From the IMG/VR virus record IMGVR_UViG_3300032163_000886, positions 1-39,091 of that record: a DNA stretch of 39,091 nt, one strand, 5' to 3'. Each line of letters starts with the position of its first letter. Within the stretch, counting starts at the first letter, position 1. The notes under the pieces were generated by a model. The model ran no database searches, had not been told where the DNA came from, and saw only the letters and a program-made list of their open reading frames with translations. This DNA comes from a virus. The translations under genes were made by a program, and so were the position numbers. Shown here in pieces: positions 6,688 to 26,150 of this stretch.

Positions 6688-6894
6688 TCGACTTCGTTTT
6701 ATGCTCACTTTGGGAATATATGACTTAATCTGACTTTGCGCAATATCAACAGATGTTGTTGGCCCACCGACTAAAGCTGTTATACTATCTACTTTCGCGA
6801 CAGTATCATCTACTAAAGTAGCATCACTAGTAATAGGCGTAATGGTATGACCTTGGTGTTTAATAATTGTTATTGGTATATCTGTTGTTGCCAT
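6685..6894 (-). CDS. Small phage protein downstream of Ser/Thr-rich protein, unknown
   Basis: A 69-residue protein with a Thr/Ile/Val/Asp-rich body and a basic tail ending KVSIKRSR. Its start shares TAATG with the stop of the Ser/Thr-rich protein, so the two are translationally coupled and probably act together. No known family recognised. The stop codon TAG forms the first bases of the promoter element for the fibre gene at 6645. It may be a small fibre cap or chaperone, but this is only inferred from position. Confidence 0.55.
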   Translation of the reverse strand: MATTDIPITIIKHQGHTITPITSDATLVDDTVAKVDSITALVGGPTTSVDIAQSQIKSYIPKVSIKRSR

Positions 6895-8237
6895 TAGTGT
6901 ACCCTCAATTTAATTCGTTTAATTCTGACATCGTCGGTTTGTATACTCATTCTATTGACTTCTGGTCTAATTGTACCTCTAGGATCATCGGTTTGTACAC
7001 TCATTCTATTTATCTCTGGTTTGATTGTACCTCTAGGAATCATATTGTAGTCAATCAGGGTTGTTGTAGTGGAAATACTGGTTGAAGTGGATGACGTACT
7101 TACTGATGTGGATGTAGAACTTGTGGAAATTGAGGTGCTTATACTGGTCGAGACAGATGTGGATGTGCTGGAAGTGGAAACTGAGGTAGAGGTAGAGACA
7201 CTGGTAGACGTGCTACGACTGGTTGAGCTAGTTGATAAGCTTGTCGAAATACTCGTACTGGTTAAAGAAGTTGAAATACTTGTCGAAATACTGGAACTTG
7301 TGGAAGATGTAGAAAATGACGTGCTAGTAGAGCTGGTGGATAGAGAAGTCGATGTGGAGGTTGAACTTGTCGAAATGCTTGTGCTAGAGCTGGTAGAGCT
7401 GGTACTCAACGAAGATGAAGTCGAGGTACTTGTTGATGATGTACTAATCGAAGTTGAGATACTAGTTGAACTGGTACTAAAACTGGTGGAAGTGGAAGTT
7501 GAAGATGTACTTATACTGGTCGAGGTGCTGGAAGTCGAAATAGAACTTGAGGTACTAGAGGTTGATATACTCGTTGACGTAGAGCTAGTGGAAATTGAGG
7601 TCGAAGTACTAGTACTGCTTGTACTAACAGATGTGGTCGTACTGAGCGAAGTTGACGTAGATGTGCTAGATGTTGAAATCGAGGTACTGGTCGACGTACT
7701 GCTAGTCGAAATAGAAGTGGAAGTTGAGCTGGTACTGATGCTCGTGCTAGTCGAGCTTGTAGAGATTGATGTTGACGACGACGTGCTAGAAGTCGAAGTT
7801 GTGACCGAAACCGTTGTAGATGTACTAGTTGATACCGACGTGCTAGTCGAAGACGTAGAAAACGAAGTACTTGTTGAAGTTGAGCTAGTGGAAATGCTAG
7901 TGCTTGTGCTGGTACTTGATGTACTTGTTGAAGTTGAGGTGCTAGAAGTACTGATACTGATCGAGGTTGAACTTGTTGAAATACTAGTGGAGGTCGATGT
8001 ACTGGTAGATGAGGTGCTAAAACTTGTTGAAAATGATGTTGACGTGCTAGTACTGCTGGTAGATAACGAAGTCGAGGTGCTGGTTGAAGATGTGCTTATA
8101 GATGAGCTGGTGGAACTTGTAGAGATACTAGTGCTTGTACTGCTGGATGTGGAGCTGGTTGATGTAGTTGTAGCCGCCGCTTCTGGACCATAATATTGCC
8201 CAAAATACGGCTGCCCAAAGTAATTAGTGCCAGCCAC
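6894..8237 (-). CDS. Mucin-like Ser/Thr-repeat virion protein
   Basis: A 447-residue protein of extreme composition. Residues 1-20 are Gly/Tyr/Phe/Gln-rich (YFGQPYFGQYYG). Residues about 22-392 are almost only Ser and Thr in STSSTSTS-like units, with single Ile, Leu, Val or Phe residues always flanked by Ser/Thr. The tail carries two tandem 18-residue units (RGTIKPEINRMSVQTDDP and RGTIRPEVNRMSIQTDDV) and a basic end. The start is GTG at 8237, preceded by AGGA. Such blocks are extended, heavily O-glycosylated stalks in other proteins. The glycosyltransferase cassette next door makes that attractive here, but glycosylation is inferred. It lies among fibre genes, so a virion or host-contact role is likely. 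Confidence 0.75.
   Translation of the reverse strand: MAGTNYFGQPYFGQYYGPEAAATTTSTSSTSSSTSTSISTSSTSSSISTSSTSTSTSLSTSSTSTSTSFSTSFSTSSTSTSTSTSISTSSTSISISTSSTSTSTSTSSTSTSTSISTSSTSTSTSFSTSSTSTSVSTSTSTTVSVTTSTSSTSSSTSISTSSTSTSISTSSTSTSISTSSTSTSTSISTSSTSTSTSLSTTTSVSTSSTSTSTSISTSSTSTSISTSSTSSSISTSSTSTSISTSSTSTSTSFSTSSTSISTSISTSSTSTSTSSSLSTSSTSSSTSISTSSTSTSTSLSTSSTSTSFSTSSTSSSISTSISTSLTSTSISTSLSTSSTSRSTSTSVSTSTSVSTSSTSTSVSTSISTSISTSSTSTSVSTSSTSTSISTTTTLIDYNMIPRGTIKPEINRMSVQTDDPRGTIRPEVNRMSIQTDDVRIKRIKLRVH
6931..7038 (-). repeat. Two tandem 54-bp repeats in the C-terminal tail
   Basis: Copies at 6931-6984 and 6985-7038 are in frame and encode RGTIRPEVNRMSIQTDD and RGTIKPEINRMSVQTDD-type units. The two copies differ at a small number of positions, consistent with a duplication that has started to diverge. 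They end the Ser/Thr-rich protein and may be a binding or attachment tag. Confidence 0.85.
7060..8170 (-). repeat. Ser/Thr-encoding degenerate repeat tract
   Basis: About 1.1 kb encoding roughly 370 Ser/Thr residues. The protein repeats are strong but the DNA repeats are poor. Ser is encoded by both AGY and TCN codons and Thr by ACA, ACC, ACG and ACT in mixed order, so neighbouring units differ at many bases. The tract has no stop codons on the opposite strand, which produces a misleading antisense open frame of 374 codons. Confidence 0.85.
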
Positions 8238-10106: not shown

Positions 10107-10149
10107 ACTCTAATTAGTAACATAGAACTAGAAACGTATAAATGGTCTA
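10107..10149 (-). promoter_or_regulatory. Late promoter 3 (TAGACCATTT, leaderless)
   Basis: TAGACCATTT (10140-10149) with ACTAAT ending 6 nt before ATG 10106. TAG is the stop of the last glycosyltransferase gene. Distance 43 nt. The element therefore separates the sugar cassette from the tail-fibre genes. Confidence 0.65.
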
Positions 10150-11118
10150 TAGAGGAGCTACTGTGTTTTGAGGTATTTGATACACTTCGTCAGAATGTTT
10201 GGGACATACAGCTATTAGTCCATCAGTGGTATGCATGATTTCATGACATACATTACCGCCAGCATTTAGTTTCTGACAATAAACTCCCCACATATCGTGG
10301 CGCTCACCCCATTTTTCCCTTAAATCACTATGCTTAAGTTCATCCTGAACTAGTTGGCGCATATCTTGTTCTTCGTCAACTGATTGAAAACTTCTACTCC
10401 AGTGATGGAACACCCAGGATAAAGTAGTACCAATACAGCGATAACCAAACATACTGGCTCTACAGCAGAGATCATAATCATTAGCATTACCTGGATACCA
10501 AAACTCATCAATTAGACCCACCTCCAGCAAGCGTTTAGTATCAGCCACTGAACAATATAGGTTAATACCGTCAATAACAGTGCCTGGCTCAATTGTCATA
10601 CGCTCATTGACGTAGTGAGGCTCATCTATTAGCCAGCGCCAATCTTCTTCAGTATATTTTTCTTTGTAAGGCAAAATATAGTGGTCCTGGCCTTTAGGAA
10701 GCCCTACGGACCAATCGGGCAGTTTAATCGAAGCCGCGTTAATCAGTAACGCTGGACGCGTTGGTGTAGCCCGCTCAACCTTAATAAAGGTATCGACGAT
10801 GCCCTGCCACCAACCTATATTGACAAATTCTACGTCGTCGTTAAGAAATGTCACATAGGGTGTTTGGACTAAAGAAACACCTAAGTTAGTAGCCTGAGAA
10901 TGCCCTAAATTCCCCGTAAAATGGGTATCGGTACGAGGGGTACGAATAATCATGAGATTTTTAAATCTATCTCTCAACGACATATCAATACCCCTAGCTG
11001 TTTGGTCGACAATTATGACGTAAAAATTGTCGGGCGTATAGGCATATAAAGTCTCTAGGCAACGCTCAATCAAATCACCCCTAATAATAGGGATGATAAA
11101 CGTATTTTCTTTAGGCAT
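10147..11118 (-). CDS. GT2-type glycosyltransferase
   Basis: A 323-residue GT-A fold enzyme that should transfer a sugar from a nucleotide donor. The N-terminus has the short start form FIIPIIRGDLIERCLETLYAY. The metal-binding motif is NDD-VEF at residues 93-98 (DXD-like). The acceptor side shows the aromatic-rich NANDYDLCCRASMFGYRCIG stretch near residues 211-230, as in GT2 rhamnosyl-type transferases, and a later HHWSRSF. It is the last gene of the sugar cassette. Its start is coupled to the gene before it and its TAG stop belongs to the next promoter. Acceptor and sugar are unknown. Confidence 0.85.
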   Translation of the reverse strand: MPKENTFIIPIIRGDLIERCLETLYAYTPDNFYVIIVDQTARGIDMSLRDRFKNLMIIRTPRTDTHFTGNLGHSQATNLGVSLVQTPYVTFLNDDVEFVNIGWWQGIVDTFIKVERATPTRPALLINAASIKLPDWSVGLPKGQDHYILPYKEKYTEEDWRWLIDEPHYVNERMTIEPGTVIDGINLYCSVADTKRLLEVGLIDEFWYPGNANDYDLCCRASMFGYRCIGTTLSWVFHHWSRSFQSVDEEQDMRQLVQDELKHSDLREKWGERHDMWGVYCQKLNAGGNVCHEIMHTTDGLIAVCPKHSDEVYQIPQNTVAPL

Positions 11119-11476
11119 CTAGCAGTTTAGTGATGACTGGACCCATTTGATATTTCAGCAGTTCAGCGTCATCTACCTCTTGTACGTCTGACATCATGAA
11201 GCCTAAACTATCTACCAATTCTGGTCCTGTTGGACCGCTCTGGGTCCCCGAAATCCACTGACGAGTTTTCTTATTGTCGTCCAGTAAATATACTTTGTCA
11301 CCTGAAGTTTTTGTTCTAACTACTCTTTGACCCGCAGGCGTAACGCGTGCTGGCTCAACCGCGACTGGTTCAACGACCGTACCTTCTACTACTGGAGCGG
11401 GAACAGCTGTTTCAGCGGCTCGCTCTTCAGCGGCCCACTGGTCAATTAATTGATGTAATTTTACTATGTTTTGCAT
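11111..11476 (-). CDS. Small protein with KVYLL-type domain in glycan cassette
   Basis: A 121-residue protein: a helical start, an Ala/Pro/Val/Glu-rich linker (about residues 20-45), then a compact domain KVYLLDDNKKTRQWISG (about residues 61-77) followed by LVDSLGF and LLKYQMGP. This pattern (KVYL.d.gkkrWI..p...lGf) occurs as a short accessory domain in surface and glycan-related proteins of several uncultured bacterial groups. Its function is not established. A strong ribosome site (TAAGGAGGGCTAAA then ATG) precedes it. It overlaps the GT2 gene by 8 nt, suggesting a partnership. A possible role is carrier, acceptor or targeting module for the transferases. Confidence 0.6.
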   Translation of the reverse strand: MQNIVKLHQLIDQWAAEERAAETAVPAPVVEGTVVEPVAVEPARVTPAGQRVVRTKTSGDKVYLLDDNKKTRQWISGTQSGPTGPELVDSLGFMMSDVQEVDDAELLKYQMGPVITKLLDA

Positions 11477-11477
11477 T

Positions 11478-12455
11478 TTAGCCCTCCTTAATTATTTTAT
11501 CTATACGCTCCATCATTTGAGGAGTTGTATATTCATGGTTAATTAAATACTGACGATAGGATTCACTGTCATATTCTCCGTCAGTTATCATATCAATTGC
11601 CTCATCAATTCCTTGCCATACCCAGCCTGAATCACCCCAAAGTGGCTTATACCCTCCAAAAGCATGTATAACGGGTCGTATGCCCTTAGCAGCAGCCTCA
11701 GCGGTAATAGCAGAAAAGGCTTCCTTGATAGAGTTATTTAATAAGTAGTTCTTGTCTTCCAGCCATTCATCCAGATTATCCACCCAGTCTATAAAGGTAA
11801 TATTCAGTTTGTTATTCTTGATGAACTCTTCCATATAATAGCGGTGCCAGTGGTACTGTTGGTCTTTACCGAGATAGTAAATATGGTACCTTGGGTCGAT
11901 TCGCTTGAGTTTGAGGGCTATCTGGAGGGTGTAATCTATCCCTTTGGACTCCCAAATTTCCGATACTACAGCTATCTTAAACCCAGGTTTGCGCTCCCTA
12001 AACGTCCACTTATCTAAATTAACAGAGAACGGGATAACATGAATCTTCATCTTACTCTGTTGTGGGCGAGAGTCAGCCATCATTAAATCTCGTATATGAG
12101 GAGCAATGAATATGCAATCATTAACCAAATCCCAAAGCTTCTCATCAGCATGATGCCCACTAAAGACTTCTATATCCACTGGTTGAACTATAACTTTTTT
12201 ACCAGTTAAATCCATTTTGTGCATATCTGATTCTATAATCCCATCCTGAAGCCAGAGAGCTTGTAGGGCTTCATCAGGGTTCATAGCGGATTTCAAATTA
12301 TTATCGCACGTAAAGAAGTAGATTATATCAGCCCATTCAATTAGCGTAGGGTTGTAATACTGCTGATACTTAACCTCGTAGCCGTGAGACTCCCACCACT
12401 CCATAGGGTCTCTCATAAATTTCAGCCCATAGGGGTCGAATAAAAGTATCTTCAT
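11478..12455 (-). CDS. GT4-type glycosyltransferase
   Basis: A 325-residue GT-B fold enzyme. The N-terminal Rossmann half begins MKILLFDPYG, and the C-terminal half contains KIAVVSEIWESKGIDYTLQ (about residues 179-198), the donor-binding entry of GT4 enzymes. The region SIKEAFSAITAEAAAKGIRP (about residues 261-280) corresponds to the conserved EX7E area with Glu and the Gly turn. Its ATG overlaps the previous stop as ATGA. The donor and acceptor sugars are unknown. Part of the cassette that includes ten probable transferases. Confidence 0.8.
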   Translation of the reverse strand: MKILLFDPYGLKFMRDPMEWWESHGYEVKYQQYYNPTLIEWADIIYFFTCDNNLKSAMNPDEALQALWLQDGIIESDMHKMDLTGKKVIVQPVDIEVFSGHHADEKLWDLVNDCIFIAPHIRDLMMADSRPQQSKMKIHVIPFSVNLDKWTFRERKPGFKIAVVSEIWESKGIDYTLQIALKLKRIDPRYHIYYLGKDQQYHWHRYYMEEFIKNNKLNITFIDWVDNLDEWLEDKNYLLNNSIKEAFSAITAEAAAKGIRPVIHAFGGYKPLWGDSGWVWQGIDEAIDMITDGEYDSESYRQYLINHEYTTPQMMERIDKIIKEG

Positions 12456-13324
12456 AGGATACCCCGAACTATCGTCAGTAAATCTTTGACTCGGTTAACA
12501 ACTTTTAAATTCTCTTGAGCATATTGATACGATTTATCATCACCCCCCAAATGCCCGAAGTTTCTTATTTTTTCTATACAGTCATCAATATTATAGAAGT
12601 AGTCTACATAGTCATGAAATGTGCTTTCCATTAAAGGTATATGCCTAACCAGCGGTCTAGCTCCACAACACATTATCTGTGCCATTCTGTCTGACCAATA
12701 CCCTCTTTCTAATGTATGGTCTATTGCTAGAATAACTTTGGCCCTAGCATACAACTCGGGTAGGCCCTCATCCATAATCGGTGGACGCACATCCTCAAAC
12801 CCGTCCCATGCGTTTACTGAATGAATTACTAGGTTAAACTTCTCATCCACAGCTTTCAGGGTTTCATTTCTCTCAGTCGCCCAAGGAAGATAAGAACCCG
12901 TGAATAGGACATCAATGTCTTTCTCCACACTCAAATTAAGGCTTTTATCTAAGAACTTGGGCGCAAAGTCTTGACTTAAATATTGCCAGTTAGGATATTT
13001 AGAATCAGCTATTCGTTTAGATAAATATAAGTCAGCCCCAGCTACAAGTCTTTCGTGCCATTCTTGACCCCATTCCTGAAAGTCAAAACTCCAATAGACT
13101 ACAGGACAATTGAAATGTCGGAGATTAGTAGTCAATACTGCTGAATAGCCATCCCATTGAGATATAAGGATAAAATCATATTCTCCATAAGGAATCTGTA
13201 GTTCTTCACGTTGTTGCCTACTGACCTCATGCCCTAGTTCTTCTAATGCTCCAGCAATATGCTCTTCATCGCAAATAGAGCCATCCCAGCCTCTGCCAAA
13301 ATTACCAATACTTAATATTTTCAT
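12452..13324 (-). CDS. GT-B glycosyltransferase, CgeB/Glyco_trans_1_2-like
   Basis: A 290-residue enzyme from ATG 13324, chosen because it overlaps the upstream TGA as ATGA; a longer frame with 17 extra residues would overlap the upstream gene deeply. The N-terminus MKILSIGNFGRGWDGSICDE is Rossmann-like. DVLFTGSYLPWATERNETL (about residues 137-155) and DRMAQIMCCGARPLVRHIPL (about residues 218-237) match the C-terminal donor domain of the CgeB/Glyco_trans_1_2 group. Substrate unknown; expected to be cytoplasmic. Confidence 0.8.
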   Translation of the reverse strand: MKILSIGNFGRGWDGSICDEEHIAGALEELGHEVSRQQREELQIPYGEYDFILISQWDGYSAVLTTNLRHFNCPVVYWSFDFQEWGQEWHERLVAGADLYLSKRIADSKYPNWQYLSQDFAPKFLDKSLNLSVEKDIDVLFTGSYLPWATERNETLKAVDEKFNLVIHSVNAWDGFEDVRPPIMDEGLPELYARAKVILAIDHTLERGYWSDRMAQIMCCGARPLVRHIPLMESTFHDYVDYFYNIDDCIEKIRNFGHLGGDDKSYQYAQENLKVVNRVKDLLTIVRGIL

Positions 13325-14301
13325 GATGTAGCCTCCCTCAAAAACTCTCTCCAAGGCTGGATATGTTTGTCCCACTTCCAGTTATCTTGTATCTCGGCCC
13401 AGGCTAGATTACCCATAATCTTACGCTCTTTAGGGTGGTCACGCATCCAAACAACCGCATCTCTAACCTTTTCAGCCAGCTCTGGCTCGTCCTTATCTAT
13501 CAGAATACCTCCACCAGCGTCAGTAATGTGACGGTCAATACCTGTATTAGTAGCAATGACTGGGACTCCGCAAGCTGCAGCCTCTAGTACGGGGAAGGAT
13601 AAGCCATAGTAAGAATCACACCTCAGTAAAACATCTAAGCGATTATAGATATTAGGCATTCCCGACCAATACTTGCCACCAGCTACCACGCGCCCTATAA
13701 ACTCCATGCCGCCTAGTCGTTCAATCTTATCTTCTGTGCCACCATTATTCACCCAGCTCTGAGAAAATATCATAATACGCACACCCTCTAAATCGTAAAG
13801 CGGTTTAATGGCCTCTTCGAACATACGTCGCGGATTACCATAAGAACCAACAATACCAACGTGCAATAAATCATCTTCGCGCACCATGGGAAATGGTTTA
13901 AATAAATCCGTATCAATCCCAAACCGCACTTTATGAACTTTTTTGCCTGGGTACTCTCCAGCATCAGTTACGTCAGTCGTGGAAGCTAGGTGTTTAACTG
14001 CATTCCAGTGACCCTCACCTGGTTCATACATGACGATAGCCATCTTATCGAACCACTCTTTAGTTGTAGGCACTCCAGCATGTGTCGGCAATAAAGGAAT
14101 AATTAAGTCATACTCATTCGGATTACGTTCAAAGGGTGACGTGGCAGGGAAACGGTCTAAGAAATTATCAAATGGTTCGTAAGGTACTTGAGCCATTTCA
14201 ATAAAAAACTCATCGGATAGATACCTAATTAAGTATTCATAATGGGCTTCCATATACCAGCCACCCTGAATTCCTGGAGGAATGAACAATATTTTTTTCA
14301 C
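13321..14301 (-). CDS. GT4 glycosyltransferase
   Basis: A 326-residue GT4 enzyme with the clearest family signature in the cassette: GLSFPVLEAAACGVPVIATNTG at about residues 233-254, with the conserved Glu240. The GT-B donor half begins near HVGIVGSYGNP (residues 147-157). The start is GTG 14301, overlapping the previous TGA as GTGA. It lies between a methyltransferase and the CgeB-like transferase, so several sugars are probably added in sequence. Donor sugar not deducible. Confidence 0.88.
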   Translation of the reverse strand: MKKILFIPPGIQGGWYMEAHYEYLIRYLSDEFFIEMAQVPYEPFDNFLDRFPATSPFERNPNEYDLIIPLLPTHAGVPTTKEWFDKMAIVMYEPGEGHWNAVKHLASTTDVTDAGEYPGKKVHKVRFGIDTDLFKPFPMVREDDLLHVGIVGSYGNPRRMFEEAIKPLYDLEGVRIMIFSQSWVNNGGTEDKIERLGGMEFIGRVVAGGKYWSGMPNIYNRLDVLLRCDSYYGLSFPVLEAAACGVPVIATNTGIDRHITDAGGGILIDKDEPELAEKVRDAVVWMRDHPKERKIMGNLAWAEIQDNWKWDKHIQPWREFLREATS

Positions 14302-14852
14302 TTTTGCACTCTACCAATCTTTCCATGAAGCGCTTCCCACTTGCCCTCACCGAAATGGTCGTTCAGAAACTCTTTAACTCCTGGAGCGGCATAGTCTATG
14401 TCATGAAATAGCATTACTGAACCTGGAGCCATAAACGGTTCCCAACGCAGACAATTCTTTTTGACCTCTTCGTAATCATGACCGCCGTCAATAAATATCA
14501 GATTAATTGGCCTAGTCCAGACTCCAGCAAACTCATCAGCATCGCCGTGTACAAAGAAACCACGCTTCTCGAAACCAATAACACCTTCTTGTTCCGCAAA
14601 TGGGCCACGGCCAATCGTATGAGGCGCTACGGGCGGGACATCATGGATATCAACACCCACGATAAAGACGCCAGGTTTAGCGTAGTGCGAAGCCACAGCC
14701 ATACTACGTCCTTCGTCAACCCCTATTTCCAAGTAAATATCACCTGGTTCTAGCTTTTCAATTTCTGCTTTCATGATTAGCATATCGGCAGGACCAAACA
14801 TCCCCTGAATCGATTTTTCGATATGAGCACTTAATTCGTCAATAGTTTTCAC
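14298..14852 (-). CDS. SAM-dependent methyltransferase (class I, CmcI/Methyltransf_24-like)
   Basis: A 184-residue Rossmann methyltransferase. The SAM loop is IYLEIGVDEGRS (residues 39-50). VGVDIHD around residue 65 is the acidic strand-2 end. FIDGGHDYEEV (residues 120-130) provides the metal-type Asp/His/Asp seen in sugar and antibiotic O-methyltransferases of this group. It closes with VMLFHDIDYAAPGV. It starts with GTG overlapping the previous TGA as GTGA. A related enzyme occurs at 18773-19270. The likely role is O-methylation of a cassette sugar. Confidence 0.82.
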   Translation of the reverse strand: MKTIDELSAHIEKSIQGMFGPADMLIMKAEIEKLEPGDIYLEIGVDEGRSMAVASHYAKPGVFIVGVDIHDVPPVAPHTIGRGPFAEQEGVIGFEKRGFFVHGDADEFAGVWTRPINLIFIDGGHDYEEVKKNCLRWEPFMAPGSVMLFHDIDYAAPGVKEFLNDHFGEGKWEALHGKIGRVQK

Positions 14853-15739
14853 AATCGGTTTCTCCAGTCAACTAGAATATCTTCTAGTGTTTGCTCTAAT
14901 TTATATTGAGGCACCCAGCCACCATACATCCGAAACTTCTCACATGATGGCTTTTTAAAACTAAAATCACCAGGCCGATAAAGTGCAGGATTTATCTTAG
15001 TCTGAATGTCACATTTAGCCTTGCTAATTAAAATGTCCATAATTTCCTGCATAGTGACATTTTGGTCAGAACAGATAGAGTAAACCCCTGAAGGTAGTTC
15101 TATGGCTTGTTTGTAGGCCCGAACAATATCGCGTACATCGGTGTAGTTACGAACTGACTCCAAATTACCATGTTCCACAACTTGCCTAGTCCCATTCTCT
15201 ATTTCTACAATCTGTTTAGCAAAAGCACTCTCAGCGTACATCTCGCCCCTGCCTGGGCCTGCGTGGTTGTACGCACGTGTAATCACCACATCTAGGCCGT
15301 AATGGGCGTACAGGCTGCCTAAATGGTCCATAGCGAGCTTAGAAATTGCGTAAGGAGATAGTGGCCGCGGCAGAGATAGTTCGGTAATAGGAGCCTCGGC
15401 ATCGGTAGTATCGCCAAACTCTTCTGAAGTCCCAGCCAGATGAACTCTAGTTTTAATGCCCAGTTGCTTAACCGCTTCCAATAAATTCAGTGAGCCTAGA
15501 GTGTTTACCTCAAACGAGCGTCTGGGATTAACAATGGACTCGGGTACATAGGCCTGAGCTGCCAAGTGAAATATATGCGTAGGTCTGAAAACATCCAATG
15601 AGTTACGTAGTTGTTCATAGTTACGGATATCCTGACCATCACGCAGATTGAAGCCCTGAACCTCCCAACCCTCAGTTTCTAGTAAACTAGTGAGATGTTG
15701 ACCAACAAATCCCTTTGAGCCACTAATCCATGCTTTCAT
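14849..15739 (-). CDS. NAD(P)-dependent nucleotide-sugar reductase/epimerase (Rmd-like SDR)
   Basis: A 296-residue extended SDR. The cofactor loop is SGSKGFVG (residues 6-13; G-x2-G-x2-G). Catalytic Tyr130 and Lys134 are in SPYAISK, with Thr104/Ser105 in LAGTSEEFG. NHAGPGRG (about residues 157-164) and the ESAFAKQIVEIENG segment that follows match GDP-6-deoxy-4-ketomannose reductases (Rmd), which make GDP-D-rhamnose. NLESVRNYTDVRDIVRAYKQ (about residues 197-216) also fits that group. The start ATG follows AAAGGAGTTTC. Together with the adjacent DegT-type enzyme it suggests local synthesis of a deoxysugar. No dehydratase (GMD) is visible, so the keto-sugar may come from the host or elsewhere in the genome. 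Confidence 0.82.
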   Translation of the reverse strand: MKAWISGSKGFVGQHLTSLLETEGWEVQGFNLRDGQDIRNYEQLRNSLDVFRPTHIFHLAAQAYVPESIVNPRRSFEVNTLGSLNLLEAVKQLGIKTRVHLAGTSEEFGDTTDAEAPITELSLPRPLSPYAISKLAMDHLGSLYAHYGLDVVITRAYNHAGPGRGEMYAESAFAKQIVEIENGTRQVVEHGNLESVRNYTDVRDIVRAYKQAIELPSGVYSICSDQNVTMQEIMDILISKAKCDIQTKINPALYRPGDFSFKKPSCEKFRMYGGWVPQYKLEQTLEDILVDWRNRL

Positions 15740-16805
15740 GAAACTCCTTTATGGTCTGAACCACATATTTAATCTGTTTATCACTTAAGTATTGATGACA
15801 GGGAAGCAGTAAACCGTGATTATTGACAAAAGTCGCTCTAGGAAATTTTTTATTCTTGAGATACTTCTGGGCAATTGGCTGGTTGGTCAAGGGCATAATC
15901 TGTCTAGTTTGAATATCATGGTCAGCTAAATAACTAGCTAGGTCGTCGCGGTCTTCTGCAAAAATCGGGTAAAACATATAAGCATGATTAGGCTCCGTGG
16001 GACCTAATAAACTAGCGTTAAACTGCCGAGTTTTAATTATTTCGGCTAGACTATCAAGTTCAACTAACCCAAGTGCCGCTTCGAGTTCGGTTAATCTATC
16101 AGAATAGCCAAAACGAGGAAACTTATAGTGAGCACTAGGGTCTGCAATATCATCAATATTTAAATAAGACTCGTCGCGGCCATGGAACATCATTGAACGC
16201 ATAGTAGTAGCTAATTTTTTATCATTAGTAGCTATAAAGCCGCCAACTCCTGTTGTAACCAGATGAGCTAAATAGGTTGAGTAGCAAGCTACATCACCCC
16301 TGGGTTCGTAATCGATACCCATCATTTCACAGGAGTCTTCTATAACTTTTAAATTATTTTTCTTAGCACTAGCTATGATTCTCTGCATATCTGCAGGCCG
16401 CCCCAATAAGTGAACTGGGATAATCGCTCTAGTACGATTAGTCATAGACTGTTTCATTTTGGCAGGGTCTATATTTAAGGTGTCTTGGTCGATATCCACC
16501 AACACTGGCACTAAGTTATTCATCACCACTACATTCATAGTAGCCACAAAGGTCACGGCAGGAATTAATATTTCGTCGCCGTCTTTCCAACCATATTTAT
16601 CTTTCATGGCATGAATGGCTATTTTTAATGCATCCGTACCCGATGAGGTAAATAGAACATAGCCCCAATCGTGCAACTCAGCAAACTTCTCTTCCAGTTT
16701 TTCGGTAATTGGACCATAGGTTAAGCGCCCACTCTTAAGAACTTTATTAACCAACCTCTTCTGTTTCCAGGAAACCTTCCAATCGGCTAGTGGAACTGTA
16801 ATCAT
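15723..16805 (-). CDS. DegT-family PLP sugar enzyme with His in place of catalytic Lys (3-dehydratase-like)
   Basis: A 360-residue fold-type I PLP enzyme of the DegT/DnrJ/EryC1 family. TSSGTDALKIAIHAM (residues 53-67) is the phosphate-binding region, IPAVTFVATMN (81-91) is conserved, and VIEDSCEMMG (154-163) provides the ring-binding Asp157. Ordinary aminotransferases read SF...TK.(I/L)..GEGG; here the aligned stretch is STYLAHLVTTGVGG (residues 176-189), with His181 at the lysine position. Known members with His there (ColD, and E1 of CDP-ascarylose synthesis) remove the sugar 3-hydroxyl rather than transferring an amino group. Function as a 3-dehydratase is therefore inferred. Overlaps its neighbours at ATGA. 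Confidence 0.85.
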   Translation of the reverse strand: MITVPLADWKVSWKQKRLVNKVLKSGRLTYGPITEKLEEKFAELHDWGYVLFTSSGTDALKIAIHAMKDKYGWKDGDEILIPAVTFVATMNVVVMNNLVPVLVDIDQDTLNIDPAKMKQSMTNRTRAIIPVHLLGRPADMQRIIASAKKNNLKVIEDSCEMMGIDYEPRGDVACYSTYLAHLVTTGVGGFIATNDKKLATTMRSMMFHGRDESYLNIDDIADPSAHYKFPRFGYSDRLTELEAALGLVELDSLAEIIKTRQFNASLLGPTEPNHAYMFYPIFAEDRDDLASYLADHDIQTRQIMPLTNQPIAQKYLKNKKFPRATFVNNHGLLLPCHQYLSDKQIKYVVQTIKEFHESMD

Positions 16806-18058
16806 AACTTGTGCTCTCCGTCTTTATCTAGAATATAGGGGTAAGGCATAATAAATAATAACCTGCCGCCAGCCTGGATGTACTCTTGTTCACGAGCTAC
16901 AATCTCATCCTTGAAGTTCCAGGGAATCACAAACATTACATCAGGCTTCATGGCTCGAGCTTTCTCTTCTGAAATAAGTTTTATGCCCGTACCCAAAGTT
17001 TGTAAACCAACTTTGAATGGATTACGTTCTGAAATATAGGGCATCAGTTCTTTGCCAATGCCGCAGATTTGGAGTAGTACGTTGCCCTTCGTGGAAGCAC
17101 CCAGACCAATTACTAGCCCTTTCTGGCTGGCTACGTAAGCTTCAACTTTGGCGGCACTATCTTCAATCATATCGGCAAATTCTTTGTAAGTTTCGACCTG
17201 GTCAAGTCCTATGCCAATTGGTTTTTGAATTTCCTGATTCATGAATTTACCTAAATCACCATAGTCTTTATCTTCGATTTCTCGCTCTTTATGTACCACA
17301 ATAACCCGTAAGCTACCGCCGTTAACAGCATTAGTAGAGGCATCTATAATCTTCATACCATTCCGCTCCATAAGCTCAGATAAGCTGTGAAAAGAATAGT
17401 ATTCTAGATGCTCATGACAGATGTCGTAGAAATTCATATCTTTTATGGTGTCATAAAGATAACTAACTTGGATAATCGCTACACCATCATGGGTTAATAG
17501 AGTTTTGATTTCCTGAACAGCTCTATTCGGGTCGTCCAGGTCATAAAACATAGCGGTGGCAGTAATGATTTTATACAATTTATGTAACTTGGTAGAAGGA
17601 AAATAGTCTTCAATTATAGTGGTATTTTCGTCAAAATCGATAGCTGAACGGTCTATGTTCTCGGCAGGGTCTATTCCAACTTTATTTATAGTAACTGGAT
17701 AAAAAGTAAGCATTAACCCGTCATTACAACCGATGTCTAACACATTATCACCAGGGTTCAATTTGACTCTTGAACAAGCATCACGAACCACGTCACGCAA
17801 GTCACGATTCATGGTAGCCGATACATTGGACCGATAAAAATAATTCTTATAAAGCAGTTCGGGATTGACAGTTTCTTTTAACTGCACAAGTTTACAAAAA
17901 TTGCAAAGTAATAAAGTCAATGGTACCTTAATCTCTTGTTCAGGTTGCTGTTTTACAAAGGTAGAAGCTATATACTGAGGTTCAAAATGTACCACTTCTT
18001 CTAGGTCTGCAGACCCACACAAGCGACAATGAGTTATGTTAGTATAATTACTTTTCAT
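16802..18058 (-). CDS. Sugar C-methyltransferase (zinc N-domain, SAM core, C-terminal domain)
   Basis: A 418-residue, three-domain enzyme from ATG 18058, preceded by GGCAGGAGATTAAGA. An N-terminal zinc site has Cys11, Cys14, Cys52 and Cys55 (CRLCG, LLCNFCKL). The SAM core follows with NVLDIGCNDG (residues 105-114). Then come NGGSLRVIVVHKE (about residues 253-265) and the C-terminal domain VIGLGASTKGNVLLQICGIG, the pattern of NDP-keto-sugar C-methyltransferases (TylCIII/NovU/EvaC type). Such enzymes add a methyl to C-3 or C-5 of keto-deoxysugars, fitting the DegT and reductase neighbours. This would give a branched-chain sugar. Confidence 0.85.
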   Translation of the reverse strand: MKSNYTNITHCRLCGSADLEEVVHFEPQYIASTFVKQQPEQEIKVPLTLLLCNFCKLVQLKETVNPELLYKNYFYRSNVSATMNRDLRDVVRDACSRVKLNPGDNVLDIGCNDGLMLTFYPVTINKVGIDPAENIDRSAIDFDENTTIIEDYFPSTKLHKLYKIITATAMFYDLDDPNRAVQEIKTLLTHDGVAIIQVSYLYDTIKDMNFYDICHEHLEYYSFHSLSELMERNGMKIIDASTNAVNGGSLRVIVVHKEREIEDKDYGDLGKFMNQEIQKPIGIGLDQVETYKEFADMIEDSAAKVEAYVASQKGLVIGLGASTKGNVLLQICGIGKELMPYISERNPFKVGLQTLGTGIKLISEEKARAMKPDVMFVIPWNFKDEIVAREQEYIQAGGRLLFIMPYPYILDKDGEHKL

Positions 18059-18776
18059 TCTTAATCTCCTGCCATTTATTACCATCTTTTGCCATGTCAG
18101 CTATGTGGATGTCGGGATGTTCGTCCCACATAGTGTAGCGCGTCCCAGCCGTAATGTGGGTAATTAACGACTTATTAGTTACTACTAATCTGGCCCCTGC
18201 CTTATCCAAGCGGTCAAAAAAAGCAGCTTCCCCGTATTCGTTAAATAATCTATCATCCCAGCCACCCGACCTATCAAATATTTCACGAGTCATCATAATG
18301 CAGCCAGCCTCTCTGCCACCTTTACCCATAGCTTCTTCATGAGTAGCTTTGTAAGAGTCTTTAATCCATTCTCTCGTATTAGGAAACTGGTCTGGCCAAA
18401 CTACATCACCCAAGTTATTGTCTAGGTAATAGGCCATACCCTCCAACCAACCCTCGTGCACAAATACATCAGGCTGGATAAAGCACAAATATTTGCCTTT
18501 AGCCATTTTTGCGCCTTCATTAAGCGATTTATAATATCCATGGTCTTTTTGGTTAACCTTAATTTTCATGTCGTCAAGCCGTAACGCAAAATAGTCATCA
18601 CGCAAACGGTGGTGTATTTTTACGCCATCTATTTCGGCTACGTTATCAACTAGAATAATTTCGTAAGGTTCATCTGTAAAACGACGAATATTAGCTAAAG
18701 AAGCCATCGTCATATGCCTAAGCGTTCGACTAAAATCAAATAAACAATAGATTATGCTAACTTTAGGTCTTTTCAT
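18048..18776 (-). CDS. GT2-type glycosyltransferase
   Basis: A 242-residue GT-A enzyme. KVSIIYCLFDFSRTLRHM (residues 5-22) is the donor-binding strand. EIILVDN (39-45) is the first acidic motif. QPDVFV (101-106) takes the place of the DXD motif. Residues about 150-205 contain the acceptor-side REAGCIMMTREIFDRSGGWD and HITAGT. It overlaps the C-methyltransferase by 11 nt and the upstream methyltransferase at ATGA. Sugar and acceptor unknown; presumed cytoplasmic. Confidence 0.83.
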   Translation of the reverse strand: MKRPKVSIIYCLFDFSRTLRHMTMASLANIRRFTDEPYEIILVDNVAEIDGVKIHHRLRDDYFALRLDDMKIKVNQKDHGYYKSLNEGAKMAKGKYLCFIQPDVFVHEGWLEGMAYYLDNNLGDVVWPDQFPNTREWIKDSYKATHEEAMGKGGREAGCIMMTREIFDRSGGWDDRLFNEYGEAAFFDRLDKAGARLVVTNKSLITHITAGTRYTMWDEHPDIHIADMAKDGNKWQEIKNEK

Positions 18777-19270
18777 AGATAAATTCTCGCCATGCTACAT
18801 TGCTGATTAGGAGAAAAATATACTTCCAGTTTGTGCTTCTTGGCAAACTCTTCGACGGCTCGAACTACTCCTGGCGAAGTCGCATCAGCATCATGAAATA
18901 ACATCACGCCTTTTTTAGCCATCTGCGGATACCAATTATCTATATCAGCCTTACAGCCCTCGTAAGTATGGTCGCCATCAATAAAAATAACATTGACTAA
19001 TTTATTATATTTAGCCACCGTACTATCTACCTGTAGAAAAGTTGTATCTGGAACCTTGGGGTCATCTCGCAAATCAACCCCAACTACTATCACGCCCTTC
19101 TTGGCTACCATCCGCGCTATCGATAAAGACTTACCTTTGTCTACCCCTACCTCTAAGTAAACCTGACCAGCTTTAAGCTTTTGAATCTCAGGAACACATA
19201 CTTCCATATCAAATGTAGAAAAAGCACCAAGATTAGCTTTTAAATCCAAAGCCCCATAATCAACCTTCAT
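18773..19270 (-). CDS. SAM-dependent methyltransferase (CmcI/Methyltransf_24-like)
   Basis: A 165-residue class I methyltransferase from ATG 19270; a frame 22 residues longer exists but lies deeper inside the upstream gene. The SAM loop is VYLEVGVDKGKS (residues 37-48), followed by VVGVDLRDDPKVP and VIFIDGDHTYEG with the metal-binding Asp/His. It closes with VMLFHDADATSPGVV. It resembles the enzyme at 14298-14852 along its whole length, suggesting a duplication or two sequential O-methylations. It sits between two GT2 genes. Confidence 0.82.
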   Translation of the reverse strand: MKVDYGALDLKANLGAFSTFDMEVCVPEIQKLKAGQVYLEVGVDKGKSLSIARMVAKKGVIVVGVDLRDDPKVPDTTFLQVDSTVAKYNKLVNVIFIDGDHTYEGCKADIDNWYPQMAKKGVMLFHDADATSPGVVRAVEEFAKKHKLEVYFSPNQQCSMARIYL

Positions 19271-20072
19271 ACTGCCTCTGTTCGTATTTAATTTTGCTTT
19301 CGTCAGTTGGAACCATATCTTTATTGCGCCAAACATCTGAGCCTAATTCGTCTCGGTCAAAACCAAATTTGTCATGAAAAAACTGTAAGTTGTTTTGGTA
19401 GAAATCCTGGTGAGTACCATCGAACGTACCGCTCTTATTAGAAAAGTGATACACTAATACATCTCGCAAGCGCATCGGCGTAACACCAGCTAAGTTGATA
19501 CGAGTCTGTAAGTCAGTGTCGCTGTTACTCCCCCACGGGTCATAGGCCGTATCGTAGCCTCCTAGTAGTTGCCATAAATCTCTTTTAACGAAAAACGGCA
19601 AATTAAAACCAGGTTCATCATTTGGTAGGTCGTCGGTTTTACGTTTAATAAAGCCATCAATCATCTCTTTGTTAAATTCTTTAAGCGTATAACCCGCGGC
19701 AAATTTCAGAAACGGCTCAGCGCTGCCTGGATTATTGGTTGGCTCAACTAAGTTTGGCGAAAACACTGGATAGTCAAAACGCAGGTTTTTATCCCAGCCT
19801 GGCGCATAGTACATATCATCATTTGACACCAAAATGTAATCGCTGCTAGAAACTTGAACACCTATATTAGTAGCCACGCATTGTCCTTGGCCGCTAGTAT
19901 GCATTCGTTTACTAATGCCAGAAATATTAAGAGGTACGGGCGTTGGCACACCATTAGTAACGACTACAATTTCTCCGTCAAAGCCAGATTCGCGAAGACT
20001 TTCCACGCAAAGTTTTAAATAACCTACAGTTTTTTCATTCGCCAAACTCGGTATCACAACTGAATATTTCAT
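19260..20072 (-). CDS. GT2-type glycosyltransferase
   Basis: A 270-residue GT-A transferase. YSVVIPSLANEKTVGYLKLC (residues 3-22) and EIVVVTNGVP (34-43) lead to the NDD metal motif at residues 84-86 (LVSNDDMYYAPGW). The acceptor face contains GGYDTAYDPWGSNSDTDLQT (about residues 187-206), typical of GT2 enzymes with an ED/SD general-base segment. The start joins the upstream stop as TAATG. Its ATG-proximal sequence has no strong ribosome site, indicating coupling. Substrate unknown. Confidence 0.85.
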   Translation of the reverse strand: MKYSVVIPSLANEKTVGYLKLCVESLRESGFDGEIVVVTNGVPTPVPLNISGISKRMHTSGQGQCVATNIGVQVSSSDYILVSNDDMYYAPGWDKNLRFDYPVFSPNLVEPTNNPGSAEPFLKFAAGYTLKEFNKEMIDGFIKRKTDDLPNDEPGFNLPFFVKRDLWQLLGGYDTAYDPWGSNSDTDLQTRINLAGVTPMRLRDVLVYHFSNKSGTFDGTHQDFYQNNLQFFHDKFGFDRDELGSDVWRNKDMVPTDESKIKYEQRQYEG

Positions 20073-20602
20073 TATAGTTCCAGCTTTAATTTTACTAATA
20101 CGCCTAGTCCCTCAAAAGCCTGTCTTAATTGCGAGGAGGTGGCATTGTCTTCGTCGGTAAGTAAGCGATGGTGAAATTCTATATCGAGTAAATCTAGCTT
20201 TTGGGCAGTTTTATCTTCTAGCATTTTACGCATAACAGGGTACTCGGCTCCTTCGATATCCATTGAAACACATATCGTAGCATCTTTCGGTAACTCTGCT
20301 ATAAACTTGGAGAAATCCATTGTCGGTACTGTAATCTTCCTGTCCACCGAATCACGAATACCGTCTATATGGGAAGCGTCATTACGATTTTCCAGCCTGA
20401 ATTCTATCTCGCCATCATCTGTCCAGACTGCTTTTTTAATCCACTCTACCTTGAAAGGAAAACGCTTTAACGATTCTTCGACATCAAGTTCAGTATTAGG
20501 CTCAAAGGCATAAACTTCCCAAGTATCATCTAGAAAAGGGGCATAATATTCTAATGCCTTACCGATGTAGTGGCCACAATCCAGGAAATATTTGTTTTTC
20601 AT
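20072..20602 (-). CDS. FkbM-family methyltransferase
   Basis: A 176-residue enzyme with FkbM hallmarks: YFLDCGHYIGKALEYY (residues 5-20) as the SAM loop, VYAFEPNTELD (31-41), KAVWTDDGEIEFRL (57-70), and VSMDIEGAEYPVMRKML (about residues 112-128), the conserved D-IEGaE signature. FkbM enzymes O-methylate sugars and polyketides. It overlaps the deacetylase-like gene by 4 nt at TATGA and is preceded by GTGAGG, a ribosome site. One of five methyltransferases in this cassette. Confidence 0.87.
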   Translation of the reverse strand: MKNKYFLDCGHYIGKALEYYAPFLDDTWEVYAFEPNTELDVEESLKRFPFKVEWIKKAVWTDDGEIEFRLENRNDASHIDGIRDSVDRKITVPTMDFSKFIAELPKDATICVSMDIEGAEYPVMRKMLEDKTAQKLDLLDIEFHHRLLTDEDNATSSQLRQAFEGLGVLVKLKLEL

Positions 20603-21165
20603 AAAACCTCACTGACAAACCTAAAGTCCGTCTCATCTTTAATTCTATCCATAATGTATTCAAACTGTTCATAAACCCCATTGCCCATACAACTCCAGCA
20701 ATGGTGGTGCATAGAGTTCTCCCCTATCTTATATACAGATAAATCTTTAGGACGGCGCTCATCATTATAGGCTTGGTCTGCTACCCACCAATCGTTGTCG
20801 TAAAGCCATTTGAGAACCTCGTCAGAAATCTGCCAACCTGGAGCTTTAAATCCTTTAACAAAATAATCTTCAATCATGTCGTAGAAAAACTCCATTTGCT
20901 CTTCAAATTGCTCATAAGTCATTTTTTCGCACTCGTAATTACTAGAGTGGTAAAAACCGTGCACGGCTAATTCAACCCAGTCTTTATTGTCGCGCGACCA
21001 AGTTAGCATCTCATGAGTCATTTCCCCAGGGATAGCAAATAAAGTGACCTTAAAAGCTGGATTTGCCTCGTGTAAAGCATTGAGCACATCTCGGCAATCA
21101 TGGCTCTGGCACATATCAGAAATTTCATGGTTGCACCCGAAATCATCGCTATCGAAGACTATCAT
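20599..21165 (-). CDS. NodB-like polysaccharide deacetylase
   Basis: A 188-residue NodB-fold protein. DSDDFG (residues 5-10) is the first motif with the catalytic/metal Asp pair. HGFYH (residues 69-73) is the zinc HxxxH motif. FKAPGWQ (106-112) stands for the RxPY/W motif. It is shorter than many deacetylases but holds the main catalytic elements. It would remove N-acetyl groups from a hexosamine; the substrate is unknown. It starts at 21165, right after the one clear gap in the cassette (21166-21199). Confidence 0.8.
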   Translation of the reverse strand: MIVFDSDDFGCNHEISDMCQSHDCRDVLNALHEANPAFKVTLFAIPGEMTHEMLTWSRDNKDWVELAVHGFYHSSNYECEKMTYEQFEEQMEFFYDMIEDYFVKGFKAPGWQISDEVLKWLYDNDWWVADQAYNDERRPKDLSVYKIGENSMHHHCWSCMGNGVYEQFEYIMDRIKDETDFRFVSEVL

Positions 21166-21199
21166 TTCATACCTACAATATAACCAATGATTAAATGGT

Positions 21200-21838
21200 T
21201 CATACGGCTTCCTTTGTTATAATGTAGATATCGTGCTTAGCGCCTTTACGGGGAATTTCATCATGCAACCAGCTCACGCCTAGCGAATCTAGAAACTTCT
21301 CCCACTTAGGTTGAGAGTACCAAGCACCCCAACCGTCTTTATCGTTTTCAGCTGGATTAATATTAATGTGGTCATCGTTCTCGGTTAAATGCCAAAAAGT
21401 AACTATTACACGCTTCTTAGCGACACGCAGAGCCTCTTTAACTGGTCCTTCGTAACCATTTGTGTGTTCAAGTACGTCTTGATATAAAACAACGTCCCAG
21501 GAGTCATCTGGCTCGTTCGGGTGTCTAACATCGCCCACGGCATAGAACTCATTCTCCGAATCAGGCTCTTCGGTCTTCTTATCGGCATGGCGCGCGCGCG
21601 CTACGCGTACGAAGCGTTCTGAGTAATCTAGCCCTTTATAGGCTGCTATAGCTGGACCAAACTGGAAAAAGTGGTCCAAATTCCAGCCAGGGCCGCAGCC
21701 AACATCTAAAACTGTTTCGCCATCATTAATTAACCCGCCAATAAAATGGCGTAGTGGCGAACCTGGACCTTCACCGTAAGACAGCATATAGGTTGCTGCA
21801 CCGTCATCATCACCCATAAGCTCATCCCAGTAATTCAT
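21200..21838 (-). CDS. SAM-dependent methyltransferase (Methyltransf_11/23-like)
   Basis: A 212-residue class I methyltransferase. Residues 43-50 (LDVGCGPG) form the SAM loop, with the GLDYSE acidic motif next, and VVLYQDVLEHTNGYEG (about residues 115-130) supplies motif IV. The N-terminus (MNYWDELMGDDDGAATYM) and the long insert around residues 150-175 with HININPAENDKDGW differ from the CmcI-like pair. It overlaps the preceding small Cys protein at ATGA. The TGA stop is followed by AACCATTT, a weak match to the late promoter element. Confidence 0.82.
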   Translation of the reverse strand: MNYWDELMGDDDGAATYMLSYGEGPGSPLRHFIGGLINDGETVLDVGCGPGWNLDHFFQFGPAIAAYKGLDYSERFVRVARARHADKKTEEPDSENEFYAVGDVRHPNEPDDSWDVVLYQDVLEHTNGYEGPVKEALRVAKKRVIVTFWHLTENDDHININPAENDKDGWGAWYSQPKWEKFLDSLGVSWLHDEIPRKGAKHDIYIITKEAV

Positions 21839-22050
21839 GATTTAATCCTTTTCATTTCGCGTCTGGTATTGCGCGCAGGACACGCTCCCGTTGGATAAGC
21901 GTCCACTCCTTGAGTAAATTCTACATGACAATGCATACAAATCATTGGCTGGGCCATAACTTTACGCATAGTATTATCGTATAATTTTTCTTCACCTATT
22001 TGTCGCTCTGGGCCATGTTTTGTAAATTGATGTGGCCAAAAATCACTCAT
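21835..22050 (-). CDS. Small Cys-rich protein, putative zinc-binding
   Basis: A 71-residue protein. CMHCH near residues 38-42 and CPARN at 57-61 could bind a metal, but only three Cys are present and His must help. The N-terminus is rich in charged residues (PHQFTKHGPERQIGEEKLYD) and the C-terminus is basic (TRREMKRIKS). It is coupled to both neighbours by ATGA overlaps. No family recognised. Perhaps a small regulator or partner of the adjacent methyltransferase. Confidence 0.55.
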   Translation of the reverse strand: MSDFWPHQFTKHGPERQIGEEKLYDNTMRKVMAQPMICMHCHVEFTQGVDAYPTGACPARNTRREMKRIKS

Positions 22051-22718
22051 ATCGACTCCCTACTAAATATTTGCCTTATGTCCCCAGTTTCTACCTTGAT
22101 GTCGGTAATACCGTTGACGTAGCCTTCGGTAGTCACATAGGTAGAATTAGGGTTAATGTATACACGATTCCCTGTGCCAAGCGTATCTTTACCACGACCC
22201 ATTCCTTGCCGCCAGAAACCCAAAGATAATTGGGTCGAAAAAGCTACCAGATTTTCCATATAATCCTGTGGTAATTCCACGGAATCAAGTAATTTAGTTA
22301 GCATTTTAGCTCGCATAATTGAACCTGGTATATAGGCCACCTCTACAGGATAAGGTACTTTAGATTTCTTATCATAATTAGGCACAATGCCATCACTATA
22401 ATCGTTGTTAATTGAATAACCAAAAAATCTATTGGCCCAATTATTGACACAAGTCGAAGATGACATCACCGCCATTTTTTTAAACATCGGGTCTTTTTTA
22501 AATAAACCTAGTTGAGAAATGAAATAACCTGAACCGACCAGGCAATCAGCCTCTACAAAACAAACATAAATGTTTTTAATCTTTGGCAAATAATCAAACC
22601 AATCCTCAGAAACTATCAATTCAGCTCCAGGGATATCCTTTAATTCACGCCATAAATTTTCATAAGTAAGTTGCACCACCCTGTCCTCACCATCATTTTT
22701 TATGATAACGCTTAACAT
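22047..22718 (-). CDS. GT-A-like glycosyltransferase, short
   Basis: A 223-residue protein from ATG 22718, which follows GCAGGAGAAGACG; a 14-residue longer frame lies inside the upstream gene. GAELIVSEDWFD (residues 31-42) and CFVEADCLVG (53-62, with Glu56 and Asp58) resemble the DXD region of GT2 enzymes, but the GT-A core is compressed and the usual acceptor motif is not obvious. It probably still binds a nucleotide sugar. Alternatively it is a non-catalytic partner of the GT2 next to it. Function is inferred mainly from the neighbours. Confidence 0.6.
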   Translation of the reverse strand: MLSVIIKNDGEDRVVQLTYENLWRELKDIPGAELIVSEDWFDYLPKIKNIYVCFVEADCLVGSGYFISQLGLFKKDPMFKKMAVMSSSTCVNNWANRFFGYSINNDYSDGIVPNYDKKSKVPYPVEVAYIPGSIMRAKMLTKLLDSVELPQDYMENLVAFSTQLSLGFWRQGMGRGKDTLGTGNRVYINPNSTYVTTEGYVNGITDIKVETGDIRQIFSRESI

Positions 22719-23481
22719 CGTCTTCTCCTGCAAATAATAGTAATTCGTCTTTAAAATCACCTTGTGTTAAAGCTGGGTGGTCAATATCTCTATGGCCGCT
22801 CTCTTCAGGCTTCATAGTCTCTTCGTAACCCCAGCGGTCAGTTCCACCTATGCCGCGCGTACCAAACAAATGTAAACAACGAATCTGTACCGCAAAAGCC
22901 GTACCGTAACCAGCTTCTCGTAATTTTCCGCATATATATGTTTCTTCGGACCCGCGGCCAGGTGCGCCTCTATCCCATCCCCCGACCTTTTGCACAGCAT
23001 CGGTTCGCATAATCCTAAACGAACCGCCAGGGTGAGCAAAGTCTAGAATGTCGTCCCCTGCTTTATCAGAAAATTCAAATATTTCACCCGAGCCAATCAT
23101 TACTTGAGTGCGCATCGAAATGGCTGCATAAGTTTCATATTTAAACATAAGCTCAAGCATTCGCTCTAGCCAATCTTTATCTTCTTTAATCGGTGGCGGC
23201 AAACAGTCGTTATCGATACAAACAAAATATTTACTCTGAGTAGCATGGACCAACATGTACTGTCGAGCTTTTTCCAGGCCACCATTCTTATCCATAACCA
23301 TTAATTCGTCGATTAGCTTTTCTCGATGCAGTCCTTGAAGCATGATTTGGGTCGAAAGCTCTGAACTATTATCTAAAACTACCAATCGATAAGTACCTGA
23401 TTTGGTGTTGCGTTTAATGGTTCGAATAACTAATTCAGTCATTTTAGGCCGATTCCAAGATACTAGATGCAAATCAGTCAT
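22693..23481 (-). CDS. GT2-type glycosyltransferase
   Basis: A 262-residue enzyme from ATG 23481 (preceded by GGAGAAATTC). HLVSWNRPKMTELVIRTIKR (residues 5-24) is the GT-A donor strand with the Trp-Asn-Arg-Pro motif, VVLDNSSEL (34-42) is the first acidic element, and CIDNDCLPPP (88-97) carries the DXD-like Asp-Asn-Asp. FAHPGGSFRIMRTDAVQKVG and GGWDRGAPGRGSEETYICGK mark the acceptor side. An overlap of 8 nt with the next GT2 upstream suggests coupling. Substrate unknown. Confidence 0.85.
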   Translation of the reverse strand: MTDLHLVSWNRPKMTELVIRTIKRNTKSGTYRLVVLDNSSELSTQIMLQGLHREKLIDELMVMDKNGGLEKARQYMLVHATQSKYFVCIDNDCLPPPIKEDKDWLERMLELMFKYETYAAISMRTQVMIGSGEIFEFSDKAGDDILDFAHPGGSFRIMRTDAVQKVGGWDRGAPGRGSEETYICGKLREAGYGTAFAVQIRCLHLFGTRGIGGTDRWGYEETMKPEESGHRDIDHPALTQGDFKDELLLFAGEDDVKRYHKK

Positions 23482-26088: not shown

Positions 26089-26150
26089 GAACAATAAACC
26101 TAGTCAATGGTTTATGTCAACCACTTTAGAGAATATTGCTGTGGAAAAGT

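Follow-up and report, generated by a model that had tools for sequence, protein, structure and literature searches.

A tailed phage encodes, within a cassette of sugar genes, a DegT-family enzyme in which histidine takes the place of the catalytic lysine. Sequence, predicted structure and gene context point to a likely role as a sugar 3-dehydratase that depends on PMP, is recycled by glutamate and would work like ColD, most likely on GDP-4-keto-6-deoxymannose. The window that we analyzed is the complete IMG/VR record IMGVR_UViG_3300032163_000886 (39,091 bases), which is a tailed-phage genome or a large fragment of one. Pfam matches and the ORF list place its terminase, portal-like and capsid-like genes all on the minus strand, and about 15 kb of glycosyltransferase, methyltransferase and sugar-nucleotide genes splits the capsid side from the tail side. 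Because the window covers an entire phage record, this locus is a phage glycosylation cassette, and we dropped its reading as a bacterial O-antigen locus. The best match of the terminase was the archaeal virus ANMV-1 (26% identity), the capsid matches were 30-32% identical to phages of varied bacteria, and no tRNA genes were found in the record.

All genes of the cassette described here are on the minus strand. Its upstream half (18048 to 25652) encodes glycosyltransferases and FkbM-type and other methyltransferases according to Pfam, a block that is kept in the related phages L036 to L041. Next come a C-methyltransferase (16802 to 18085; PF08421/PF13489/PF08484) with TylC3 as its closest solved relative and HEH kept at residues 224-226, the DegT-fold enzyme (15723 to 16805) and an RMD-like SDR, the proposed C4 reductase (14849 to 15739). 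A Methyltransf_24 protein (14298 to 14852), whose gene shares 4 bp with the RMD-like gene, and GT2- and GT4-type glycosyltransferase genes (10147 to 14301) lie downstream. The DegT gene overlaps the C-methyltransferase gene by 4 bp and the RMD-like gene by 17 bp, and therefore the three genes are probably co-translated. Two small ORFs were seen outside this set. One with an HNH-like look (25642 to 26094, minus strand) lies at the edge of the cassette that faces the capsid side, and its relatives occupy differing positions within the cassettes of L036, L040, L041 and L044. The other (36085 to 36603, plus strand) runs counter to the phage genes and has a transposase zinc-ribbon match slightly below the Pfam cut-off.

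The ORF of interest starts with ATG and encodes 360 amino acids spanning a full-length DegT_DnrJ_EryC1 domain (PF01041, E = 1.5e-76). Pfam, NCBIfam, PHROGs and PDB searches agreed on its placement in the DegT/DnrJ/EryC1/StrS family, and it scored far below each NCBIfam cut-off for named enzymes. The initial annotation had proposed that the aldimine-forming lysine is replaced by His181. This was borne out when the protein was aligned by HMMER with the solved lysine enzymes 7b0m, perosamine synthetase 3bn1 and ArnB-like 8sng: 'ACYSTYLAHLVTTGVGG' lines up with 'CFSFNGNKIITTGGGG' of these enzymes, and H181 falls on the catalytic lysine. In all alignments H181 is followed by LVTTGVGG, where lysine enzymes have IITTG[EG]GG. 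S176 and D157, the usual residues for the PLP phosphate and the pyridine nitrogen, are intact. The codons of this loop signature (16240 to 16265, minus strand) gave the only exact DNA match in the window, with none in 100 shuffles and 0 expected. The only cysteines are C159, C174 and C336, and the four-cysteine [2Fe-2S] motif of the E1 type is absent from the protein; it is present in L008, L028 and L140_2.

We then looked at the residue in relatives. Scanning viral contigs with the single 360-aa sequence gave no matches. A DNA pattern of the His motif, biased to histidine by design, found 24 viral loci, and two peptide patterns that lie clear of the catalytic site and do not contain the histidine gave most of the 48 viral loci of the clade. 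Cellular genomes were scanned with one peptide pattern off the catalytic site plus the His motif. Relatives were grouped into a clade by a score of at least 200 bits to the query, with the residue itself not used, and every one of them carries histidine. Among 97 distinct clade sequences, H181 is present in 100%, Ala180 in 92% and Val187 in 95%, and S176, D157 and G56-T57 are invariant or nearly so. This invariance, together with the scan unselected for histidine, rules out a sequencing accident or gene decay behind His181. The residue before the histidine is Ala180 in the query and A, G, S, C or T across all His rows, never Asn, which is the commonest residue at that position in Lys rows (28 of 50). 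In ColD this residue is Ser187, and the double change S187N/H188K turns ColD into an aminotransferase. The clade has a loop signature of its own (TGVGG, Val187, Pro305, Lys68 and Gln309). It has Val187 where nearly all ColD/E1 rows have the Glu of a GEGG loop, and Pro305 in place of the Asn of their Gly-Asn loop, which it lacks. Gln299 of the query stands at the position of ColD Glu329, the Glu of the GIECRP stretch. The clade occurs in tailed phages, Patescibacteria, Elusimicrobia, Omnitrophota, Woesearchaeota and Aenigmatarchaeota (DPANN archaea), Acidobacteria and others.

Phylogenetic trees were built from 71 rows and from 67 rows with the motif columns removed. In both trees one branch set all His rows apart from the rest, and one change between lysine and histidine (support 83 in the masked tree) would be a parsimonious account of a shared origin of the histidine. 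The His rows formed three separate clades by SH-aLRT: that of the query (99), that of ColD and E1 (98) and a third one (100). We therefore rejected membership of the query in the ColD/E1 clade; its own clade is separate and apparently without a characterized member. Which of these two clades lies nearer to the lysine enzymes had a support of 18, with an AU p of 0.52 for the alternative. The third His clade is mostly archaeal and is marked by AHxx..CGEGGM and SMPTQHKA (L162, L163, L164, L165, L170, L177, L181, L082 and L083); we know of no characterized member. Thus, of the kinship with ColD and E1 that had been proposed, the histidine and the likeness to 3-dehydratases stood, whereas the query belongs to a clade of its own and its nearest solved structures are lysine enzymes. 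A position inside ordinary aminotransferases with lysine-bearing close relatives is contrary to what we found, as the close relatives all have histidine.

An AlphaFold2 model built on 63 family sequences had a mean pLDDT of 96.2. The best VIA-align matches were structures of GDP-perosamine synthase (3bn1 with Z 46.0 and 1.5 A for 341 residues); E1 scored Z 44.3 and ColD Z 43.0, where values within 1 Z count as ties and a common fold is no proof of function. Both by sequence and by top Z, the nearest solved structures are lysine enzymes, namely sugar aminotransferases and GDP-perosamine synthase. The latter uses GDP-4-keto-6-deoxymannose, the same substrate as ColD, and the presumed substrate is shared with the top structural match; GDP-perosamine synthases (3bn1, 3dr4, 3dr7) differ in having Lys186 within an Asn-Lys motif and in transferring an amino group. 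The protein resembles ColD of E. coli O55 (2gms, 3b8x) in the DegT fold, histidine for lysine, a small residue before it and the lack of an Fe-S motif, and its cellular relatives often adjoin GMD and an Fcl/ColC-like enzyme. It differs from ColD in its separate clade, in TGVGG for the EGG loop, in lacking the Gly-Asn loop and in being encoded by a phage next to a C-methyltransferase and an RMD-like reductase. With E1/RfbH (CDP-4-keto-6-deoxyglucose 3-dehydrase, 3bcx) it shares the fold, the catalytic histidine and Ala before it, but E1 binds [2Fe-2S] by four cysteines and needs E3. Cyanophage 3-dehydratases such as S-CAM7 AOV62415 are likewise phage His DegT proteins in a glycosyltransferase cassette, which there includes GMD and a GDP-fucose synthetase-like gene; AOV62415, however, is a true ColD-clade member (closest to 2gms, and by tree) and is only about 26% identical to the query.

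One review (PMC8987622) describes only three kinds of PMP 3-dehydratase as well characterized, namely E1, ColD and SpnQ. Their reaction opens with a Schiff base between PMP and the 4-keto sugar, the histidine takes a proton from the cofactor and the C3-hydroxyl leaves; in ColD, which acts on GDP-4-keto-6-deoxymannose, the enamine is then hydrolysed and glutamate resets the enzyme, whereas E1 and SpnQ rely on electron transfer by Fe-S (PMC8987622). By analogy, the substrate of the phage enzyme would be a nucleotide-activated 4-keto-6-deoxyhexose, most likely GDP-4-keto-6-deoxymannose, and PMP would engage its 4-keto group as a Schiff base; with His181 as the base, the C3-hydroxyl would leave. 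Hydrolysis of the enamine would then release a 4-keto-3,6-dideoxy sugar and ammonia, and L-glutamate would regenerate PMP. We prefer the ColD route over the E1 route because the query has no Fe-S cysteines. This agrees with the self-sufficiency that the initial annotation had favored: no ferredoxin- or flavin-reductase-type (E3-type) Pfam domain was found among the scanned ORFs of the window, a set that excludes several large structural ORFs, and the host could supply such a protein. From the TylC3 and RMD likenesses we infer C-methylation and C4 reduction: the overlapping C-methyltransferase may methylate a carbon next to the ketone (C3 or C5), and C4 may be reduced by the RMD-like enzyme. 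The product would probably be a 3,6-dideoxyhexose and possibly a C-methylated one. A search of the non-subscription literature found no paper on DegT 3-dehydratases in phages.

We next analyzed the gene neighbors of the enzyme in its relatives. Within 5.5 kb of the DegT gene, GMD (GDP-mannose 4,6-dehydratase) was present in 23 of 52 cellular clade loci, in 16 of them at no more than 300 bp, and Fcl-like enzymes were present in 14. Neither occurred beside the Lys-type DegT genes of the same scan (0 of 20 cellular loci each), a contrast that is indicative since the GMD and Fcl profiles were seeded from His loci. One neighboring GMD scored 528.8 bits, above the curated NCBIfam cut-off of 415. This neighborhood points to GDP-4-keto-6-deoxymannose as the substrate, although by itself it would fit a perosamine-type enzyme too. 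No 4,6-dehydratase (GMD) making the proposed substrate was found in the phage itself, and the host would have to supply it. The RMD-like SDR keeps a T-S-E motif, and we considered whether it is really a 4,6-dehydratase, but its best solved match is a reductase, GDP-6-deoxy-D-lyxo-4-hexulose reductase 2pk3. With this match and that of its neighbor to TylC3, the RMD-like and TylC-like partners that had been named at the outset were supported.

The order of C-methyltransferase, DegT and RMD-like genes is kept in the related phage L036, and the DegT-RMD pair in L037 and L041. L041 has a different methyltransferase at the place of the C-methyltransferase, and L038 keeps the DegT enzyme without either partner. 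Of the four closest phages, only L036 has the C-methyltransferase, and this gene is therefore an optional add-on. DegT-C-methyltransferase pairs also occur in the cellular loci L126, L135, L139, L150 and L152, with the C-methyltransferase after the DegT gene and HQH at its catalytic site, vs HEH in the window. In L070, L071, L074, L075, L077, L078 and L016 the gene of the His-type enzyme directly precedes a small conserved gene and that of the large terminase, and none of the sugar enzymes sought as partners is close by. A search over 5.5 kb found no such partner in the terminase-linked phages L070, L071, L074, L078, L016 and L072, which, like L038, counts against a ColD-type enzyme.

There is a small but real probability that the enzyme is a C3-dehydratase for another nucleotide sugar, namely CDP- or dTDP-4-keto-6-deoxyglucose or a GDP-heptose. 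Without GMD in the window the phage leaves the nucleotide of the substrate unfixed, E1, SpnQ and C. jejuni enzymes run the same chemistry on CDP-, dTDP- and GDP-heptose substrates, and the SDR partner in an archaeal locus (L148) is closest to GDP-heptose 4,6-dehydratase. The proximity of GMD and Fcl-like genes to the enzyme in many cellular relatives, the GDP-6-deoxyhexulose reductase match of the window SDR and the GDP-sugar enzyme at the top of the structural matches argue for GDP-4-keto-6-deoxymannose instead. PMP chemistry foreign to ColD and E1, such as epimerization, elimination of another kind or amino transfer limited to one turnover, appears improbable. It would suit a clade that stands apart and carries distinctive loop residues (Val187, Pro305, Lys68, Gln309), and SpnQ, a His enzyme, transaminates under some conditions (PMC8987622), but the characterized His members E1, ColD and SpnQ are all 3-dehydratases (PMC8987622) and the partner genes fit the ColD pathway. 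Loss of the Schiff-base lysine by itself is the expected sign of a pseudoenzyme, yet a noncatalytic protein, be it a degenerate aminotransferase or one with a regulatory role, is very improbable given a histidine and other cofactor residues that are invariant in about 100 relatives and a family that adjoins sugar-nucleotide enzymes. An ordinary sugar aminotransferase using another lysine, as the best sequence match and the best Z might suggest, has practically no probability, there being no second lysine near the motif, no lysine at that position in any close relative and a tree that sets His rows apart from Lys rows. For a ColD-type 3-dehydratase we counted the invariant histidine never preceded by Asn, the missing Fe-S motif, the top fold match sharing the substrate of ColD, and the GMD/Fcl neighbors; counted against it were the lysine aminotransferases as closest solved enzymes and the Glu, the Asn at 305 and the GIECRP Glu of ColD/E1 that are not kept.

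The cassette is flanked by three candidate glycan acceptors, all encoded on the minus strand. These are a mucin-like protein (6894 to 8237) with a 381-aa stretch of 86% Ser+Thr in which every Ser/Thr codon is in use, a 671-aa protein (2315 to 4330) with a 98-aa Ser/Thr-rich stretch and, beside the capsid-like gene, a protein (26546 to 27382) whose composition reveals a Ser/Thr-rich C-terminal tail. The stretches contain 82-86% Ser+Thr and use nearly all available codons, and hence they are selected as protein and are not DNA repeats. They were present in 12 of 12 related phages that share the glycosyltransferase cassette and in one marginal case among the other 81 viral loci (Fisher p 3e-14, which is overstated as the 12 phages are related and their loci longer). 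This pairing suggests O-glycosylation of virion proteins: the glycosyltransferases of the cassette would put the sugar on virion proteins, with the Ser/Thr-only stretches as plausible acceptors. The glycosylated capsids of the mycobacteriophages Che8 and Rita are a precedent for phages that glycosylate virion proteins (PMC11256854). Those phages are described with a few glycosyltransferase genes and with glycans on the major capsid proteins, and the paper mentions neither a dedicated deoxysugar pathway nor mucin-like stretches (PMC11256854).

If the enzyme is a 3-dehydratase, its clade would be a fourth kind of PMP 3-dehydratase, spanning viruses, candidate-phyla bacteria and archaea. The signature S-x-Y-x-[AS]-H-x-x-x-TGVGG ... 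R-x-x-x-P-L-x-x-Q-P would then find dideoxy-sugar pathways whose enzymes are currently named aminotransferases by models. More speculatively, a family of tailed phages might build its own branched 3,6-dideoxy sugar by this uncharacterized class and coat mucin-like, Ser/Thr-only virion proteins with glycans containing it, and in Patescibacteria and DPANN archaea the same class might supply surface glycans with dideoxy sugars; we regard this whole picture as possible but rather doubtful. The pairing of a proposed sugar pathway with mucin-like, presumably virion, proteins in one phage makes a testable case.

Several further features were seen in the loci of the relatives. A Lys-type DegT gene shares the locus with the His-type one in L078, L077, L122, L039, L040, L076, L056 and L057. 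The two are side by side in L078 (8734-9792 and 9998-11164), L122 (2885-4051 and 4070-5260) and L077, and such a pair could make an amino-3,6-dideoxy sugar. The region 5189-5879 of L031 contains an E1-like His DegT gene with an in-frame insertion of intein-like look in the PLP-binding region (CLAEGTLIKTDNG...EFFANGLLVKNC). Finally, in 17 viral loci (for example L024:2506-3234, L022:2801-3526 and L012:5090-5812) the His-type enzyme is preceded, at a distance of one or two genes, by a conserved protein of about 240 amino acids with a LMLDDYWLTRQVD motif and no Pfam match, which is possibly a new glycosyltransferase.
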